In this document: positions 16,383 to 50,907 of the stretch, one piece after another | How positions within the stretch are numbered: position 1 is the stretch's first letter | How the letters are laid out: each line of letters opens with the position of its first letter | Assembly: GCA_035529315.1 (NCBI GenBank) | Contig: DATKWZ010000034.1 | Span: forward strand, 62,001 to 126,000 | DNA: 64,000 bases | Reading direction: 5' to 3' | Origin: Anaerolineae bacterium | GTDB taxonomy: Bacteria > Desulfobacterota > Desulfobacteria > Desulfobacterales > ETH-SRB1 | The notes under the pieces: model-generated | What the model was told of the DNA's origin: nothing | The model's input: only the letters and a program-made list of their open reading frames with translations | Database searches by the model: none | Position numbers and translations under genes: made by a program

Positions 16383-17543
16383 TTATACCCCGGAAACCTC
16401 TTCCTTAACAGTAACGGCAATCTTGAAAAGCAGGGTTAATACAAAAAAACCGGTTGCCCAAACACCGAGAGATATAACAATCTCCGGCAGCGTTGGGATA
16501 TATTCGGTAACATGATGAAGAGGATTAGGCACAAATCCGCCTGAGATCATTCCGAGACCTTTGTCAATCCATGTTCCGATAAACAGTATTACGCACGCAA
16601 AAGCCAGAACAGCTTCATTTTTGCGGGTAACAGGATTAACAAGGAGAATAATAGATGTCAACATAAACGCCATTGATGCCCACATCCATGGAACCAAAGC
16701 GCCATATCCGTGAAACCCGAAAAAAAGGTATTGTATATGAGCCATATGGCTTGGTATTCTGCTGTAAAAGACTACAAATATTTCACAAAGGAAGAAAAAT
16801 ACATTAATTATTATTGCATATGTAACAATTTTGGCAAGAGATTGAATCTGTTCTCTGCCCGGATCAAATTTTGTTACCCTCCTGATGATAAGGCACAAAA
16901 GAATTAATAATGCAGGGCCTGCGGCAAAGGCTGAAGCAAGAAATCTCGGAGCAAGAATAGCGGTTAGCCAGAATCCCCTTCCCGGCAAACCACAGTATAA
17001 AAATGCTGTTACAGTATGGATAGCCGGCGCCCATATAATTGAAACAATTGCCAGCGTCTTTACCCAGCCTGGATAATGCACATTATTCCGTTCCGCCTCG
17101 ATCACATTCCAACCCACAATGATATTCAGTAAAAGATACACGTTTAAAACTATCATATCCCAGAAAAGGACAGATCCCGGCGTTGGATAAAGCATAACAT
17201 TAAGAGCGCGCATAGGTTGTCCAAGATCTGCAATAATAAACATAAGACACATGATAACAGCCGCTATAGCTAGGAACTCACCTAAGATAGTAATCCTGCC
17301 GAAAGCTTTATAGTCATGGAGGTAATATGGAAGAACCACCATAACACCCCCTGCCGCAACACCGACAAGGAATGTAAACTGGGCAATATAAAAACCCCAT
17401 GAAACGTCTCTGCTCATACCTGTAATCCCAAGGCCGAAACTAAGTTGCCACAGCCAGAAACCAAAAGCAATGCCCATAACAGCGAGCAGTCCTATAATAA
17501 ATATCCAGTATTTCTTGCCGCCTTTAAGTGCTAATTCAAGCAT
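16383..17543 (-). CDS. dsrP: DsrP, NrfD-like membrane subunit of the Dsr complex
   Basis: A 386-residue integral membrane protein of the NrfD/PsrC family with about ten hydrophobic helices. It is the quinone-interacting subunit of DsrMKJOP. MSRDVSWGFYIAQFTFLVG and the long run of helices match the family. DsrP exchanges electrons between menaquinone and the periplasmic DsrJ/DsrO. The ATG has a GAGGT site. It is the last gene of the operon, 7 bases after dsrO, and is followed by two hairpins. Confidence 0.95.
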   Translation of the reverse strand: MLELALKGGKKYWIFIIGLLAVMGIAFGFWLWQLSFGLGITGMSRDVSWGFYIAQFTFLVGVAAGGVMVVLPYYLHDYKAFGRITILGEFLAIAAVIMCLMFIIADLGQPMRALNVMLYPTPGSVLFWDMIVLNVYLLLNIIVGWNVIEAERNNVHYPGWVKTLAIVSIIWAPAIHTVTAFLYCGLPGRGFWLTAILAPRFLASAFAAGPALLILLCLIIRRVTKFDPGREQIQSLAKIVTYAIIINVFFFLCEIFVVFYSRIPSHMAHIQYLFFGFHGYGALVPWMWASMAFMLTSIILLVNPVTRKNEAVLAFACVILFIGTWIDKGLGMISGGFVPNPLHHVTEYIPTLPEIVISLGVWATGFFVLTLLFKIAVTVKEEVSGV

Positions 17544-17550
17544 AATAACC

Positions 17551-18336
17551 TCATACTATGTAGTAAATGGCCGGTCCTGCACCAAGCTCCGGTTTTCGAC
17601 GAATTGTATAGTTATTTTTCAATAATTTTCTGACTTCAGACTCAGAATCGTGAAGATCCCCAACAACTATTGCTCCGTTTGATGCTTCCGCACAGGCCGG
17701 CATTTTTCCAACAGCCAGCCTTTCAGCGCAAAGATTGCACTTTTCCACAACCCCTTTCATCCTTGTGGGGAATTCTTTGTTCTCCTCCTTGATAAAGGGA
17801 CGTGGATCTCTGAAATTAAAGCTTCTCGATCCGTAGGGGCATGCAGCCATGCAAAACCTGCACCCTATGCAGCGATGAAAGTCCATTAGAACAATTCCGT
17901 CCTCCCGCTTAAAGGTTGCCTTGGTCGGACAGGCTCTGACACATGCGGGTTTCTCGCAATGATTGCAAAGCACCAGGAATGGCAAATGTTTTACCCTGTC
18001 ATCAACAAATTCATGTTCCTGGTTTGTAAAGACATATTTAAATTCGTCAATCCATATCCACATGATTTCGTGTCTTTTGTTTGTATGCTTAGGGATATTA
18101 TGGATCTTGTTGCAAGCCTCAACAATCGGCCCGAGGTCCTCTTCAGACTCGTACTTTCTGGTATCTATAACCATAGCCCATCTTTTTGCTTTTAAAGCAG
18201 CTGGATTTTTCCGGATTTCAGCTTCACGCTTTTCGCTCTGTCCACCAGAAGCAAATGCATTTAGAACAGGCTTTGTCCCTAAACCAAGAGCTGAAATACC
18301 AGCTATTTTTAAGAAGCTTCTTCTGCTGTTTTCCAT
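17551..18336 (-). CDS. dsrO: DsrO, periplasmic iron-sulfur subunit with Tat signal
   Basis: A 261-residue ferredoxin-like protein. The N-terminus has a twin-arginine signal, SRRSFLKIAGISALGLG, so it is exported folded to the periplasm. Cysteine groups CNHCEKPACVRACP, CIGCRFCMAACPYG and CNLCAERL hold [4Fe-4S] clusters. It passes electrons between the DsrJ cytochrome and DsrP. Its ATG shares one base with the dsrJ stop (TAATG). The identification rests on both sequence and operon context. Confidence 0.96.
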   Translation of the reverse strand: MENSRRSFLKIAGISALGLGTKPVLNAFASGGQSEKREAEIRKNPAALKAKRWAMVIDTRKYESEEDLGPIVEACNKIHNIPKHTNKRHEIMWIWIDEFKYVFTNQEHEFVDDRVKHLPFLVLCNHCEKPACVRACPTKATFKREDGIVLMDFHRCIGCRFCMAACPYGSRSFNFRDPRPFIKEENKEFPTRMKGVVEKCNLCAERLAVGKMPACAEASNGAIVVGDLHDSESEVRKLLKNNYTIRRKPELGAGPAIYYIV

Positions 18337-18734
18337 TACTTCTTCTCCTTTGGCGGCTCAATATGACAAGTCCAGCAGTAAGGTCTTACCGATGCATAAT
18401 TGTGGCATTTATCACAAAAATCAGCCTTGCTGGAATGGCATCCAATACATGAATCATCTCCGCCGGCAAGACTCATATTAAAATTTTTGCCTGTTTTGCT
18501 CACATAAACCCTGCTGGCATTTCTTACAACAGCTTCTCTCCAGACATCAAGTATCTGCATGTGCTCTGCCTTCATAAACTCCTTTGGCTCAATGCATTCT
18601 TTTTCGAGTTTTGCCTTGTCGGTCAATTTTGGTTCAGGTACAGGAGATGCTTTCCCCATATTATACCAAAAAGGAAATGTAATAATCACAATAAAGATGA
18701 TTAAACCGGTGATTATCTTGTTTTTATCATTCAT
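18336..18734 (-). CDS. dsrJ: DsrJ, triheme cytochrome c
   Basis: A 132-residue periplasmic cytochrome anchored by an N-terminal helix (TGLIIFIVIITFPFW). Three CxxCH heme sites are visible: CIGCH, CDKCH and CWTCH. The conserved cysteine in KECIEP (C47), known in DsrJ as the unusual axial ligand of one heme, is present. I choose the ATG at 18734, 9 bases after GGAGG, over an in-frame GTG at 18743 that abuts the site. A 76-base gap separates it from dsrK, the only sizeable gap inside dsrMKJOP. Confidence 0.96.
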   Translation of the reverse strand: MNDKNKIITGLIIFIVIITFPFWYNMGKASPVPEPKLTDKAKLEKECIEPKEFMKAEHMQILDVWREAVVRNASRVYVSKTGKNFNMSLAGGDDSCIGCHSSKADFCDKCHNYASVRPYCWTCHIEPPKEKK

Positions 18735-18819
18735 CAACTTCACCCTCCATTAATGCTGAATCAGCCGTCCACTACCAGCCGGGAAAAGCAGGTCGCATAT
18801 AATATCCATCAGGATCGCT

Positions 18820-20442
18820 CTATTTGTCCGGTTTGCCCGGTGTTTCTTCTCCACGCAGGTTAACGGTTCTTTCCTTTTCTCCGGGCAAGATCAGGGCATT
18901 GGCCACCAGTTCATGTGTGCCTGTAACATCCACTTCCGGAACCCAGTACTTCATAAGAGGCGGAAGCACGGCCCTGTCAATTGCGCATATACAGGCCAGC
19001 ATGTTCACATCATGTTTATCATGAACATATTTTACGGCATTAGCCCTTGGCAGACCTCCGGCAAGCCGTAATTCCATATCTTCACTTGCATTCAGGCCGG
19101 ACCCGCTGCCGCAGCAGAATGTCTGCTCCTTTATGCAGTTTCTGGGCATGTCATAAAAATTATTGCACACATTTTTTATAACATACCTTGGCTCATCAAA
19201 CATCCCCATGCCCCTGGAAACATTACAGGAATCATGAAATGTAACCTTTAAATGATCGTTCCTGGAGGGATCAAGATCAAGCTTGCCGTGTTTGATAAGA
19301 TCTGCGGTAAACTCAACAATATGAACCATCTTGGTGGATTTGGCATTCTCGAACTTTGTGCCTGTTATCGGACTAACCGGTTCTTCGAGAAAATCGGCAG
19401 GCCCGTTCATGGTGCTCATGAACTGATTTATAACCCGCCACATATGTCCGCACTCTCCTCCGAGAATCCATTTTACTCCCAGCCTTTTGGCTTCAGCATA
19501 CATTTTTGCGTTAAGCCGTTTCATGGTTTCATTGGAAGTGAAAAGGCCAAAATTTCCGCCCTCAGAAGCATATGTGCTCCATGTAATATTAAGCCCGTAT
19601 TTTTCCTTTAAATAATGATGCAGTATCATATATCCCATACAGGTATATGTGCCGGGATCGCCAAACACATCTCCGGACGGGGTAATAAAAAGAATATCCG
19701 CGCCTTTTTTATTAAATTGAGGGTTTACTCTTACTCCTGTTATTTCTTCAATTTCATCTACAAAGAAATCAAGCATATCTTTAAATGCATGAGGCTGGAT
19801 TCCCATATGATTTCCTGTCCTGTAACAATTTGAAACAGGCGTCGCTATCCAGTCAATGTTAAGGCCAAGAAGATTGAGCAGCTCCCTGCCAAGCATGGTG
19901 ATTTCGGCAGTATCAATGCCGTATGGACAAAAGACCGAGCAGCGCCGGCATTCGGTACACTGGAAAAAATAGTACCACCACTCTTTTAAAACATCTAAAG
20001 TAAGTTTTCTCGCGCCTGCAAGCCTTCCGAGCATTTTCCCGAAGGTTGTAAAATCATTTCTATATACAGATCGTATAAGTTCGGCCCTGAGAACCGGCAT
20101 ATTTTTCGGGTCGCCTGTTCCGATAAAGAAGTGGCATTTGTCGGCGCATGCTCCGCACCGAACACAGATATCCATGAAAATCTTAAAGGACCTGAACCGC
20201 GCCAGCCGATCCTTCATCCCTTCATAAATTATCTCTTTCCAGTTTTCTGGAAGCAGCCAGTCCTCATGTTTAGGATTCCATTCCCTGGGGTAGGGGAGAC
20301 CAAGTGTTTCAACGCTTTTAGGTTTAGCGGCATAACAAAACATCCCGTCTCTAATTACCGTAGGGGTATCCATCCATCCGCTTTGTGGCGGATTATAATT
20401 AATTTTCGAAAATAATTCATCTGATTTGGGAAGTTCAGCCAT
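18820..20442 (-). CDS. dsrK: DsrK, HdrD-like cytoplasmic iron-sulfur subunit
   Basis: A 540-residue cytoplasmic subunit resembling HdrD of heterodisulfide reductase. Two [4Fe-4S] sites are visible (CVRCGACADKC and CTECRRCSVFCPYG). A C-terminal CCG-type site follows (HDSCNVSRG ... QTFCCGSGSG), which binds the catalytic special cluster. It is thought to reduce the DsrC trisulfide made by sulfite reductase. Its ATG shares one base with the dsrM stop (TAATG), so DsrM and DsrK are translated together. Confidence 0.97.
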   Translation of the reverse strand: MAELPKSDELFSKINYNPPQSGWMDTPTVIRDGMFCYAAKPKSVETLGLPYPREWNPKHEDWLLPENWKEIIYEGMKDRLARFRSFKIFMDICVRCGACADKCHFFIGTGDPKNMPVLRAELIRSVYRNDFTTFGKMLGRLAGARKLTLDVLKEWWYYFFQCTECRRCSVFCPYGIDTAEITMLGRELLNLLGLNIDWIATPVSNCYRTGNHMGIQPHAFKDMLDFFVDEIEEITGVRVNPQFNKKGADILFITPSGDVFGDPGTYTCMGYMILHHYLKEKYGLNITWSTYASEGGNFGLFTSNETMKRLNAKMYAEAKRLGVKWILGGECGHMWRVINQFMSTMNGPADFLEEPVSPITGTKFENAKSTKMVHIVEFTADLIKHGKLDLDPSRNDHLKVTFHDSCNVSRGMGMFDEPRYVIKNVCNNFYDMPRNCIKEQTFCCGSGSGLNASEDMELRLAGGLPRANAVKYVHDKHDVNMLACICAIDRAVLPPLMKYWVPEVDVTGTHELVANALILPGEKERTVNLRGEETPGKPDK

Positions 20443-21443
20443 TAGCTCTCCTTTTCCACTGGAAGTCCAGCTTCTATCATTTTTTCCCTGAAGTCATCTT
20501 CATACTCTTCGTATGTATGAACCTTGACAACGGGATTCCAGGGGTTGATATGTCTTTCAGCGCGGGTATTGTTCGGCAGATTCCTGGTAGGGCTCAAAAA
20601 CACACCTCCCATATGCATAAGTTTGCTGAAAGGGAAATATGCAAAAAGAACACTTACAAGAAACAGATGGACATAAAAAATACTTCCTATGCCATCAGGA
20701 ACAGTTGGATGAAGTGTTGCTAAACCCATTGCAAACTCTTTAACGCCTACGACGTTCACCTTTGTGAAATAACGCATGAGAATGCCGGTAATAGCTATGC
20801 TGATAATAAGGAAAAGTGGAAAAAAATCGGCAGCAAGGGAAATATATCTCACCTGCGGAATATAGATTCTTCTTAAAAATAGAAAGACTACAGATGCCAG
20901 AAGAACCGCGCCGGACAGGAAGAGCCCGGGCAATCCGACCTGGAAGAAACTATCGACATTTTCCAGCAACTGCAAACATGCAGGCACGGGCTCAAGAAAA
21001 AACCGCAGATGCCTTATCAGCACGGTAAGAAAAGAATAGTGGAATGCCAATGCCGCAAGCCACAACCACTTTTCCCATACATATGAGATTTTAGTTCCTT
21101 CATTCAATCTGCACTTGGTGTTCCTGAATAATGAGCGGAAAAAAAGTATTTCAAAAAACATCCGCACAATTACGCCGCCGGCAGTAAACGGGTTGTCTAT
21201 CTTGGAATGTTTGATCCAGGGGAGTGATTTCTGCTGACCGCATGTAGAGGGAATACGGAATGGAACAGGTGAATTCGCCCAGTCCATTACACGATATATA
21301 AACCCCACGATAAAGATGAGTACGGCTATATAAGGTATTATGATGCCAAAAAGAACCTGAAGTCCAGCCGCCTCAACTCCCACATAGGCTAACGAAATCA
21401 GCACAATAACCGCTATGAGGGAAAATAAGTACTTTACATTCAT
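20442..21443 (-). CDS. dsrM: DsrM, NarI-like membrane cytochrome b
   Basis: A 333-residue membrane protein with about six helices and a NarI-like heme b domain. Histidines in LAFHYSFLTVLIRHLRFF and in LHPTVPDG ... FYVHLFLVSVLFAYFPFSKLMHM are likely heme ligands. DsrM oxidises menaquinol and feeds electrons to DsrK. A GAGGT site precedes the ATG. Only 52 bases separate it from the upstream RsbRD-like gene and no terminator is seen there. Confidence 0.96.
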   Translation of the reverse strand: MNVKYLFSLIAVIVLISLAYVGVEAAGLQVLFGIIIPYIAVLIFIVGFIYRVMDWANSPVPFRIPSTCGQQKSLPWIKHSKIDNPFTAGGVIVRMFFEILFFRSLFRNTKCRLNEGTKISYVWEKWLWLAALAFHYSFLTVLIRHLRFFLEPVPACLQLLENVDSFFQVGLPGLFLSGAVLLASVVFLFLRRIYIPQVRYISLAADFFPLFLIISIAITGILMRYFTKVNVVGVKEFAMGLATLHPTVPDGIGSIFYVHLFLVSVLFAYFPFSKLMHMGGVFLSPTRNLPNNTRAERHINPWNPVVKVHTYEEYEDDFREKMIEAGLPVEKES

Positions 21444-21495
21444 TTAACATTACCTCGCTGTGTAGCCCAAAATATATTAAAATACGTATCTGAAA

Positions 21496-22026
21496 TTAAT
21501 CGCACGGTCTGTTATCTTCGATTTCGGTTACAAGGCCGGCCCTTTCAAATGCTCTGAAGGTTCTGTTTCTTTCATCGGTTGCCTTAATCGCGTAAATTTG
21601 TTCCCTGCATTTAATAAAAACATCAAAGGCCATTAATCCAAGTTCATCGATCTTTGACTCGAACAGCAACAACTCATTTAAAATCTTATTATCGCAAAGT
21701 TCTTTTTTTAAATTTTTTCTAATTGCTTGTTTCAAGGAAAAGATAAAGGCAACAGCTTGTGAGGGAGAAAACATTACCTGGACAGCTCTGATTTTGAGGA
21801 TGGGTTCCAAAAACGATGTTATTATTGTTTGATCCATTTTATTGATTAATTCATCAAATAGAGGCCCAATGCCCTGCGAAATGGTGTTTCCAACAGGATT
21901 GGCAAAAGGATCTTTCTGGTCCTTGAGAAACCGGGAGGTGTCGTGAGGATAAGTATTAACCACCATGTCAAACCATTGTTTAACAATTGCGGCTTTTTTT
22001 TGCTTCAGTAAATCGTTTAGCCTCAT
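21496..22026 (-). CDS. RsbRD N-terminal-domain protein preceding dsrM
   Basis: A 176-residue helical protein matching the RsbRD N-terminal (globin-like sensor) domain: LLKQKKAAIVKQWFDMVVNTYP at the start, then a helical bundle with FSPSQAVAFIFSLKQAIR. In RsbR proteins this domain senses signals for the stressosome, but here the STAS output domain is missing. A good promoter lies just upstream and no terminator separates it from dsrM, so it is probably the first gene of the dsr transcript. Proteins of this type are known beside dsrMKJOP in other sulfate reducers. The role is unproven. Confidence 0.85.
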   Translation of the reverse strand: MRLNDLLKQKKAAIVKQWFDMVVNTYPHDTSRFLKDQKDPFANPVGNTISQGIGPLFDELINKMDQTIITSFLEPILKIRAVQVMFSPSQAVAFIFSLKQAIRKNLKKELCDNKILNELLLFESKIDELGLMAFDVFIKCREQIYAIKATDERNRTFRAFERAGLVTEIEDNRPCD

Positions 22027-22096
22027 TCCCAGTATCGTTTCCTTATTAATATTAACACATGAAAATCAGCATATAAAGTTTGATTTTAAGGTTGAG

Positions 22097-22125
22097 CTTA
22101 TAAACAACCTGCAAAATTTTGTCAA
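22097..22125 (-). promoter_or_regulatory. Promoter of the rsbRD-dsrMKJOP operon
   Basis: On the minus strand, TTGACA (22125-22120), a 17-base spacer and TATAAG (22102-22097). The start would be near 22090, giving a leader of about 64 bases. This is one of the best sigma-70 matches in the window, consistent with constitutive high expression of the Dsr complex. Confidence 0.65.
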
Positions 22126-22272
22126 GAATAAAAGAAAGAAACAGCTTAAAAATATATTGTTAAATTTCAATTGACGATTGGTAAATTTTAGTTTTTAACA
22201 AAAATTTACGGTTCAATCTTAATCGTCCTCTAACCGTGAATCCTGAATCTCTGAAACGTGGAAGGAAAAGAT

Positions 22273-24978
22273 ATGACAGCATGCAAAAACAGTTTTGGAA
22301 CAAGGTCGATTCTCAACACATCTGATGGTCCTTTTGTATACTATGATCTGAAAAAAATTGCAGATTCGGGTTTTGCCGATATCGATTATTTTCCTTTTTG
22401 CATAAAGATACTTTTGGAAAACCTGCTCAGGAATGAAGACAATATTGTCGTGAATGCCGATGACGTAGAAAATATGGCAAGATGGAATCCAAAGGTTTCC
22501 GGAAACAATGAGGTTCCTTTCATGCCTGCCCGAATCCTGCTCCAGGATTTCACAGGGGTTCCGGCTCTTGTTGATATGGCTGCTATGCGAGATGCCGCAA
22601 ATCGCCTTAATATCGATCCCATGAAAATCAATCCTAACATCCCTGTTGAACTGGTAATTGATCACTCGGTTCAGGTTGACTCTTTCGGTTCTGCAAGATC
22701 CTTTGAGTATAATGTTAAAAAGGAGTTTCAACGTAATTCAGAGCGTTATGCCTTTTTGCGCTGGGGGCAGAAAAATTTTAAAAATTTTAATGTAGTGCCT
22801 CCGGCAACAGGCATTATTCATCAGGTTAACCTGGAATACCTGGCAAGGGTAATATTCATAAAGACAGAAAATGGGCAAAGGATCGCTTTCCCGGACAGCC
22901 TTGTCGGCCTTGATTCCCACACCACGATGATTAACGGAATCGGTGTGCTCGGTTGGGGTGTCGGCGGTATTGAGGCCGAGGCCGTGATGTTAGGCAACCC
23001 TTATTTTATGCTTACTCCACGGGTAGTCGGATGTTGCCTGGACAACACTCTTCCTGACGGAGCCACGGCCACAGATCTTGTGCTTACCATAACCGAGCTG
23101 CTTCGGAAAAAAGGGGTGGTCGGCAAATTTGTTGAATTCTACGGGCCAGGCGTAAGGAGCCTGAGCTGCGAAGATCGGGCGACAATATCCAATATGGCTC
23201 CAGAGTACGGAGCAACCATGGGTTTTTTCCCTGTAGATGATGAAACAATCAAGTACCTTCGTCTATCGGGTCGGTCACAAAAAAATATCGCCCTTGTTGA
23301 AAACTATTGCAGAGCCCAGGGCCTTTTCAGAACAGAGACAATGCCGGACCCGATTTACAACGATAGTATCCATCTGGATATGAGCGCTATAGAATCGAGC
23401 CTGGCAGGCCCAAAGCGTCCTCAGCAGCGGATCCCTCTTTTAAAAATGAAACAGTGTTTTATTAATGACTTTAAGGAATCATTTGCAAACATCAGTTCCC
23501 CAAATCAGCAAAGCGCAAAACCTGTTGAGATCAGAATTGATGGGGATACATTTAGTATTGACCACGGTTGTGTGGTTATAGCGGCAATAACAAGCTGTAC
23601 TAATACCTCAAATCCCTCGGCTATGGTTGGGGCAGGGCTGCTGGCAAAAAAGGCTGTTGAGCGCGGACTTTGTACTAGGCCATGGGTTAAAACCAGCCTG
23701 GCGCCCGGTTCCAGGGTGGTTACGGAATACCTTGAGAGTGCGGGGCTGATGCAATATCTTGATACGTTGCGCTTCAACCTCGTTGCCTATGGATGCGCGT
23801 CCTGTATCGGCAACAGCGGGCCCCTTCTGGAATCTGTGGCAAGTGCTATAAGGGAGCACAACCTCGTGGCTGCGTCTGTTATAAGCGGCAATCGTAATTT
23901 TGAAGGAAGGGTTTCTCCCCTGACCCGGGCCAACTTTCTTGCATCACCTCTACTGGTTGTTGCTTATGCCATTGCAGGGAGGGTGGACATTGATTTTGAA
24001 AAAGAACCCATATCGATTGATTCCAGCGGAAAGCCGGTATATTTGAGTGAAATATGGCCCGGCATGGAGGAGATTGAAAAGGTTGTTAAAAAGACCATAA
24101 AACCGGAAATATACAGAAAAGCATATGCAACGGCGTTTGAAGGATCAAGTCTGTGGCAATCGATTCCGACTCCTGAAGGAGCGATTTACAAATGGGATTC
24201 AAAATCAACCTATATTAAGGAGCCGCCTTTTTTTAAGAAAATAACGCGTGAGGTTTCAAAACTTCAGGATATCAAGGGAGCAAGGATTCTGGCTCTTCTT
24301 GGAGACAGCGTTACAACAGACCATATTTCACCTGCGGGCGCAATCCCTGCTGACGGTCCGGCAGGCGTATATCTTGCTAAGCATGGCGTAACGCCCTTGG
24401 ATTTTAATTCCTTTGGATCCCGGCGCGGAAACCATGAAGTTATGCTGCGGGGCGCATTCGGCAATATCCGTCTTCAAAACAGGCTTGTGCCCGGCATAGA
24501 GGGTGGATGGACCATCTGTTTGCCGGAAGGAAAAGAAATGTCTATCTATGAAGCAGCCATGCGGTATCAAAAGAAAAGGACGCCCCTGCTGATTATAGCC
24601 GGCAGCGACTACGGCACCGGTAGTTCTCGAGACTGGGCAGCCAAAGGAACGGCCTTGCTTGGAGTTAAAGCTGTAATTGCTGAAAGTTTCGAGCGCATAC
24701 ACAGGAGCAACCTTGTGTGCATGGGGATTTTGCCTCTTCAGTTCAAATCCGATGAAAATGCCGGATCGCTTGAACTGGATGGAACCGAACTATATAATAT
24801 AACAGGTATTGAAAACAAACTAAAACCCGGGGGGGAACTTTTGGTTTGCGCTGATCGGAAAGACGGCGAAAAGATCGAATTTATGGTTACTGCCAGGATC
24901 GACTCTCCAATAGAATTGAGTTATTACAGACATGGCGGAATACTGGCCTATGTTATGAGACGTCTGAAAACGGATTAA
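22273..24978 (+). CDS. acnA: Aconitate hydratase (AcnA/IRP type)
   Basis: A 901-residue [4Fe-4S] enzyme interconverting citrate and isocitrate. Cluster cysteines are in ITSCTNTSNPS and YGCASCIGNSG. DSHTTMINGIGVLGWGVGG, LGDSVTTDHISPAGAIP, SFGSRRGNHEVM and GSDYGTGSSRDWAAKGT are further active-site signatures across the first three domains and the swivelling domain 4. I use the ATG at 22273, which has AAGGAAAAG upstream, instead of a GTG at 22258. In sulfate reducers that oxidise acetate it may serve a TCA cycle. It is divergent from the dsr operon. An inverted repeat built on GGATTAAGG/CCTTAATCC follows the stop. Confidence 0.97.
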   Translation: MTACKNSFGTRSILNTSDGPFVYYDLKKIADSGFADIDYFPFCIKILLENLLRNEDNIVVNADDVENMARWNPKVSGNNEVPFMPARILLQDFTGVPALVDMAAMRDAANRLNIDPMKINPNIPVELVIDHSVQVDSFGSARSFEYNVKKEFQRNSERYAFLRWGQKNFKNFNVVPPATGIIHQVNLEYLARVIFIKTENGQRIAFPDSLVGLDSHTTMINGIGVLGWGVGGIEAEAVMLGNPYFMLTPRVVGCCLDNTLPDGATATDLVLTITELLRKKGVVGKFVEFYGPGVRSLSCEDRATISNMAPEYGATMGFFPVDDETIKYLRLSGRSQKNIALVENYCRAQGLFRTETMPDPIYNDSIHLDMSAIESSLAGPKRPQQRIPLLKMKQCFINDFKESFANISSPNQQSAKPVEIRIDGDTFSIDHGCVVIAAITSCTNTSNPSAMVGAGLLAKKAVERGLCTRPWVKTSLAPGSRVVTEYLESAGLMQYLDTLRFNLVAYGCASCIGNSGPLLESVASAIREHNLVAASVISGNRNFEGRVSPLTRANFLASPLLVVAYAIAGRVDIDFEKEPISIDSSGKPVYLSEIWPGMEEIEKVVKKTIKPEIYRKAYATAFEGSSLWQSIPTPEGAIYKWDSKSTYIKEPPFFKKITREVSKLQDIKGARILALLGDSVTTDHISPAGAIPADGPAGVYLAKHGVTPLDFNSFGSRRGNHEVMLRGAFGNIRLQNRLVPGIEGGWTICLPEGKEMSIYEAAMRYQKKRTPLLIIAGSDYGTGSSRDWAAKGTALLGVKAVIAESFERIHRSNLVCMGILPLQFKSDENAGSLELDGTELYNITGIENKLKPGGELLVCADRKDGEKIEFMVTARIDSPIELSYYRHGGILAYVMRRLKTD

Positions 24979-50672: not shown

Positions 50673-50907
50673 AGTTTTTTTCTTCCCTTTCTTTTTTAAA
50701 TAATTTTTTTCTTATATCTCAATAAAATATTCAATGTCAATTGCTTGATAATTATTTAGCAAAACACCCACTGTTTTTTGCCGACAATTGTGGGAATTAA
50801 ATCTTGATTTAAGCGTAAGCTTGTTTTACTTTTAGAAAATAAAAACAAGCAAAAGAATTTATCAAATCCTTTTTTATATTCCGGCATATCCGGGTCAGGA
50901 TATTGTG

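Follow-up and report, generated by a model that had tools for sequence, protein, structure and literature searches.

DsrT, a globin-like single-domain protein encoded before dsrM, as a possible non-haem sensor acting on DsrMKJOP

The small gene directly before dsrM in the 64-kb stretch of DNA analysed here (the window) is, judged by homology and position, dsrT, a dsr gene already named in the literature, whose mechanism we infer. The last step of microbial sulfate respiration receives its electrons through DsrMKJOP, a complex that DsrT accompanies in nearly every genome that we sampled. Our preferred reading, which we put forward tentatively as quite possible, is that DsrT is a non-haem, globin-like sensor of the RsbR type that would act in trans on the reductive-type complex, with no sigma-factor partner switch. 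Read as a non-haem sensor domain with no output, dispensable in a lineage that carries xsc, DsrT would offer a testable ligand, partner and sulfate-dependent phenotype. As far as a search of the open literature goes, the additions made here are a DsrT with neither stressosome-type output nor conserved haem ligation, a DsrT-specific motif, unlinked copies of the gene, and a DsrMKJOP that occurs with no DsrT in lineage members carrying a sulfonate gene.

Identity, gene order and transcription of dsrT

The initial annotation described this gene as RsbRD-like and missed both its name and the existing literature. In the window, dsrT occupies 21496-22026 of the minus strand (ATG at 22026, stop at 21496) and encodes a single RsbRD_N-type protein of 176 amino acids. 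On the same strand there follow a 52-base spacer (21444-21495, with GAGG upstream of the dsrM ATG), dsrM (20442-21443; NF038037, 576 bits), dsrK (18820-20442; NF045796, 725 bits), dsrJ (18336-18743; NF038038, 177 bits), dsrO (17551-18336; NF045797, 314 bits) and dsrP (16383-17543; NF045798, 485 bits), all five far over the NCBIfam cut-offs.

The same arrangement was seen in four samples. In the order sample (58 genomes), 51/53 DsrM genes that pass the cut-off are preceded on their own strand by a homologue (247-581 bases between matches); the figures are 66/71 in 148 Desulfobacterota genomes (55-408 bases), 30/32 in 100 genomes of Nitrospirota, the phylum of the named Nitrospirae record L142 (53-192 bases), and 75/80 among named loci. 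Detection was by an RsbRD_N match in the order sample and by a DsrT profile in the others. Loss of the gene beside dsrM in most relatives, named beforehand as refuting its tie to the complex, is thus not what these genomes contain. Most dsrM genes with no adjoining dsrT touch contig ends. The exceptions in the order are G050, near contig ends on both sides, and G006, where the gene is relocated. Among Desulfobacterota, the DsrM of G147 and of G127 lies close to the start of its contig, with DsrT on a different one; in G168 DsrM is incomplete and stands at a contig end; and G087 and G124 have no DsrT. Weak DsrT matches (40 bits or less) in G075, G153 and G134 were left uncounted. In Nitrospirota, where a weak match of 30 bits in G290 was likewise uncounted, DsrM is cut at a contig start in G274 and lies in two pieces in G236, with a DsrT fragment at a contig end. 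Four of the five named loci that lack an adjoining homologue (L076, L087, L091, L099) have too little upstream DNA; one of their genomes has DsrT at a contig end, and searches of the other three found none. At the fifth, L097, none adjoins dsrM and DsrT lies elsewhere in the genome.

The order dsrC-homologue-dsrM is found at L141 and at eight Nitrospirota loci, where 83-219 bases separate dsrC from the homologue. It matches the order dsrC, dsrT, dsrM tabulated for Thermodesulfovibrio yellowstonii and uncultured Nitrospirae in the available part of PMC5812927, and dsrT is placed beside dsrM in portions of further papers (PMC10504309, PMC13047784, PMC6338057). It is on this agreement of homology and position that we identify the gene as dsrT. 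Our search of the open literature found no paper linking RsbRD with dsrM or with sulfate reducers, nor an RsbT co-antagonist with sulfite reductase. At two loci (L125 and L149, base 7004) the dsrT stop overlaps the dsrM start in ATGA, which suggests translational coupling in Nitrospirota.

Upstream of dsrT, a 70-base leader (22027-22096, minus strand, with AAGGAA upstream of the start) runs from the end of a -10 box to the ATG, and a putative sigma-70-type promoter occupies 22097-22125, with TTGACA at 22125-22120, a 17-base spacer and TATAAG at 22102-22097. The assignment draws on a pattern count and on relatives: TTGACA-N16-18-TATAAK has two matches in the window against 0.06 expected, and three relatives (L070, L071, L032) have the same two hexamers at the same spacing, while the leader outside the hexamers differs from the window by substitutions and indels. 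The other match in the window, TTGACA-N18-TATAAG, lies at 50711-50740 on the minus strand. The promoter described in the initial annotation is therefore present and kept, but the adjective strong is not established, because the -10 box ends in G, not T, in the window and in all three relatives; our promoter scanner demands a final T, and hence this promoter is missing from its list.

The absence of a terminator before dsrM, also claimed initially, was confirmed on the minus strand of the 52-base spacer, which holds no terminator-like and no promoter-like match; one promoter-like match (9/12) lies there on the plus strand. Across relatives, terminator-like sites occurred in the dsrT-dsrM spacer at three of the 60 loci scanned (out of 74 with a full DsrT reference), a count made with no shuffle control. 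Since the next large frame upstream, at 22258-24978, is divergent, the transcript most likely has dsrT as its first gene. Promoter, spacing and conserved order together support, at the level of sequence, a dsrTMKJOP operon led by dsrT, in agreement with the initial annotation. The divergent plus-strand gene is aconitase-like by eye and shares a 231-base intergenic region with dsrT. A single sub-threshold plus-strand match to an RNA element near dsrT was taken as chance.

Domain, predicted fold and the haem question

The RsbRD_N domain (PF14361) covers amino acids 3-106 of DsrT (21709-22020, minus strand) at 65.3 bits against a cut-off of 24.3, and no other Pfam family was found at E 0.1. An AlphaFold2 model built from 75 aligned sequences (pLDDT 94.3, pTM 0.84) has seven helices, the last of them long (amino acids 113-162; 21541-21690, minus strand) and containing Cys140. 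The best structural match of the model was pXO2-61 (Z 11.0, rmsd 3.1 over 126 residues), followed by pXO1-118 (Z 10.7, rmsd 4.2 over 140 residues) and the RsbR N-domain (Z 10.5, rmsd 3.2 over 130 residues). Haem globins and phycobiliproteins score Z 9-10, and Foldseek alone returned no match at E 0.001 or below; the affinity to RsbR therefore rests on the Pfam and sequence family more than on the Z scores. We are confident in the prediction of a globin-like fold, and the globin-like RsbRD sensor domain of the initial annotation agrees with both the Pfam score and the model. Among solved structures, sequence searches gave for DsrT a single row, at chance level (E 0.38), and for DsrK no relative at E 1e-20; among PHROGs, DsrT had one weak match of unknown function (E 0.0084).

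Conservation was read from 137 DsrT sequences, thinned at 90% identity from 143 after leaving out three repeats (L150, L151, L167) and L179, which is weak and not dsr; L113, which has no start, was left out of alignment A2. W18, N43 and P44 are invariant (137/137), F41 and Q83 are each kept in 135, Y26 in 133, K99 in 132 and Cys140 in 117. Two stretches, F41-x-N43-P44-V45-G46 and R80-A-V-Q83, form the DsrT motif. The 11 other RsbRD_N proteins of the order all keep W18, and F-x-N-P-V and RAVQ are absent from all 11. A universal redox cysteine was considered and is weakened by the replacement of Cys140 in 20/137. Selenocysteine at this position was considered because some DsrT matches, Nitrospirota ones among them, carry an in-frame TGA, and it was rejected: in G127 (L170), the only case read, the stops fall where the match ends and a normal cysteine codon specifies Cys140. 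Two small genomes with no AprA over the cut-off, G119 and G081, encode short, divergent DsrT proteins (L174 and L175, 50-62 bits) that adjoin dsrM and have lost Cys140 and RAVQ.

Haem binding was implied by the spectroscopy proposed in the initial annotation. A DsrT that binds haem and senses oxygen or NO would be in keeping with the globin-like predicted fold, and a haem-bound RsbR is described for Vibrio brasiliensis in the available text of PMC4976288. However, the proximal histidine is kept in the Vibrio RsbR proteins of the same source, whereas the window DsrT has one histidine, His28, at the start of a helix, and the best histidine column of the DsrT alignment reaches only 22/137. Cys140 might serve as a thiolate ligand, but the 20 sequences mentioned above lack it. 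Because no histidine column is conserved among the 137 sequences, we rejected the haem hypothesis and consider it very improbable.

Association of DsrT with the complex

Across genomes, DsrT and DsrM go together. With DsrM counted over the cut-off, the 148 Desulfobacterota genomes comprise 68 with both, three with DsrM only, one with DsrT only and 76 with neither, and the 100 Nitrospirota genomes comprise 31 with both, one with DsrM only, one with DsrT only and 67 with neither. The Desulfobacterota genome counted as DsrT only, G061, has DsrT directly before a DsrM that is cut by a contig end and so falls below the cut-off. In ten Nitrospirota genomes every DsrM match scores low, and none of the ten has DsrT. 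Together with the adjacency to dsrM, this co-occurrence upholds the tie to the Dsr complex proposed initially; that the protein senses or tunes the complex, as was also proposed, we likewise infer. A second DsrT copy or fragment lies away from the dsrM-linked one in G239 and G279 (both Nitrospirota) and in G061, and G270 has DsrT with no DsrM match.

Two kinds of exception bear on how DsrT might work. In G006 and G306 other genes stand upstream of dsrM and a strongly scoring DsrT lies on another contig. Retention of an unlinked gene means that DsrT probably acts in trans, if the binning is right; both are draft genomes, for which misbinning is possible. The second kind is G087 and G124, two genomes of one family that are 100% and 99% complete; DsrT gave no match in either, and each encodes M, K, J, O and P over the NCBIfam cut-offs. 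Since they keep all five subunits, DsrT is not obligatory for the complex. In G087, dsrP is followed by ackA and then by xsc, for sulfoacetaldehyde acetyltransferase (847 bits; cut-off 676). The xsc-like gene of G124 contains an assembly gap and scores 569 bits, below the cut-off, and no ackA stands between. AprA over the cut-off is absent from both. We suggest that this family is probably a sulfonate-respiring lineage. Its dsr clusters (L183/L172, G087:C25:234000-248000; L184/L173, G124:C94:5000-17500) also contain a cobyrinate-synthase-like gene, dsrN by position, and combine dsrMKJOP with dsrC and a second dsrM/dsrK-like pair, the last two recognised by eye.

Among the 71 DsrM-bearing genomes, a strong DsrT is found in 59/59 with AprA against 7/12 without, a contrast whose nominal p ignores relatedness and which rests on two families and one incomplete genome. 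The five AprA-free genomes with no strong DsrT are G087, G124, the degenerate pair G081 and G119, and the incomplete G168; the AprA-positive tally includes G133, with AprA in two pieces, and G192, whose AprA lies close to a contig start and does not reach the cut-off. We regard the association as a lead, not a proof. A DsrT that is strong in all 59 genomes with AprA and absent or degenerate in four of the 12 without would be explained if an RsbR-type sensor domain lacking STAS output had turned into a ligand-gated regulatory subunit of this respiratory membrane complex, one that sets the flow of electrons from menaquinol to DsrC according to a sulfate-activation metabolite; we think this specific version unlikely.

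The rate at which DsrT evolves is, on sequence distances, unlike that of a structural subunit: its median distance is 1.03 against 0.26 for DsrK, about four times faster. An attempt to find a partner by co-evolution of distance matrices singled out none: in 56 operons, the window included, DsrT gave weak partial correlations (0.2 or less) with every one of M, K, J, O and P. In the available part of PMC13047784, dsrT is among the lower-expressed sulfur genes of Desulfurivibrio alkaliphilus, and therefore DsrT may not be stoichiometric with the complex. As an alternative to a sensor, DsrT could help to assemble or mature DsrMKJOP, for instance by inserting a cofactor into DsrK, and a fast-evolving, all-helical product of the first gene of the operon that travels with reductive-type complexes would suit such a role. 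We nevertheless find it doubtful, given the five subunits encoded with no DsrT in G087 and G124 and a predicted fold that matches ligand-sensing domains.

Output, proposed mechanism and known relatives

As the initial annotation stated, DsrT has no STAS output: none of 75 homologues has a STAS match at E 0.001, and all 75 are single-domain proteins. This matters for the proposal that DsrT is a transcriptional regulator that controls dsrMKJOP expression by RsbR-like partner switching. The RsbRD_N homology favours such a role, and the literature leans towards it: accessible text of PMC10504309 says that DsrT may regulate dsrMKJOP expression, 'based on homology', and a regulatory role is stated in parts of PMC12948486 and PMC13047784. 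In the window genome, moreover, a gene with PP2C-like and ATPase parts (architecture by eye) adjoins a STAS gene. However, according to the portion of PMC4976288 available, the core of the stressosome is built through a STAS domain at the C-terminus of RsbR proteins, and DsrT lacks this domain; nor did the Pfam search find a DNA-binding domain in DsrT. No RsbS or RsbT partner gene lies beside dsrT in the window. In the window genome RsbRD_N is matched once and STAS twice, no RsbR-S-T row was seen around either STAS gene, and no HATPase_c_2 match falls in an RsbT-sized frame, the matching frames being of 481 amino acids or more; a lone RsbS-like role for one of the STAS genes is possible. Rows of RsbRD_N-STAS, STAS and HATPase genes do occur in the order, at L228 and L230 of two other genomes (G005 and G011), at loci apart from dsr. 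We therefore judge transcriptional control by partner switching improbable. In G005 and G011 the stressosome-like module is present alongside DsrT, and elsewhere in the order RsbRD_N is also found on histidine kinases (L234, L238).

For the sensor acting in trans that we prefer, the following sequence may be imagined. DsrT would be placed on the cytoplasmic side of the reductive-type DsrMKJOP, at DsrM, at DsrK or where DsrC encounters DsrK; it would bind a small ligand or respond to a redox-state signal; and it would thereby raise or gate the delivery of electrons to the DsrC trisulfide. Its action would be on the complex itself and not by way of a stressosome or a sigma-factor partner switch.

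Several known systems invite comparison. The first is DsrT of sulfate reducers and green sulfur bacteria: homologues of the window protein take the place of dsrT in the order dsrC-dsrT-dsrM at the Nitrospirota loci and L141 described above, and no difference was found from the DsrT of sulfate reducers. With the RsbR and RsbRD stressosome sensors it has in common the RsbRD_N domain and the globin-like fold, but unlike them it has no STAS domain and no RsbS or RsbT neighbours, and it carries its own F-x-N-P-V-G and RAVQ motifs. The two best structural matches, pXO2-61 and pXO1-118 of Bacillus anthracis, are stand-alone domains with no output domain. DsrT is predicted to be likewise a single globin-like domain with no output domain, as in stand-alone non-haem globin sensors of the pXO2-61 type. 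Identity to the two Bacillus proteins (3PMC, 3PMD) is 12-15%, and according to the title of the structure entry they inhibit sporulation, whereas DsrT is linked to respiration. Finally, DsrT may be likened, by description, to DsrD, another small accessory protein of the reductive Dsr pathway, which is a different protein with a different target and which is presented in the available part of PMC13047784 as an allosteric activator of DsrAB.
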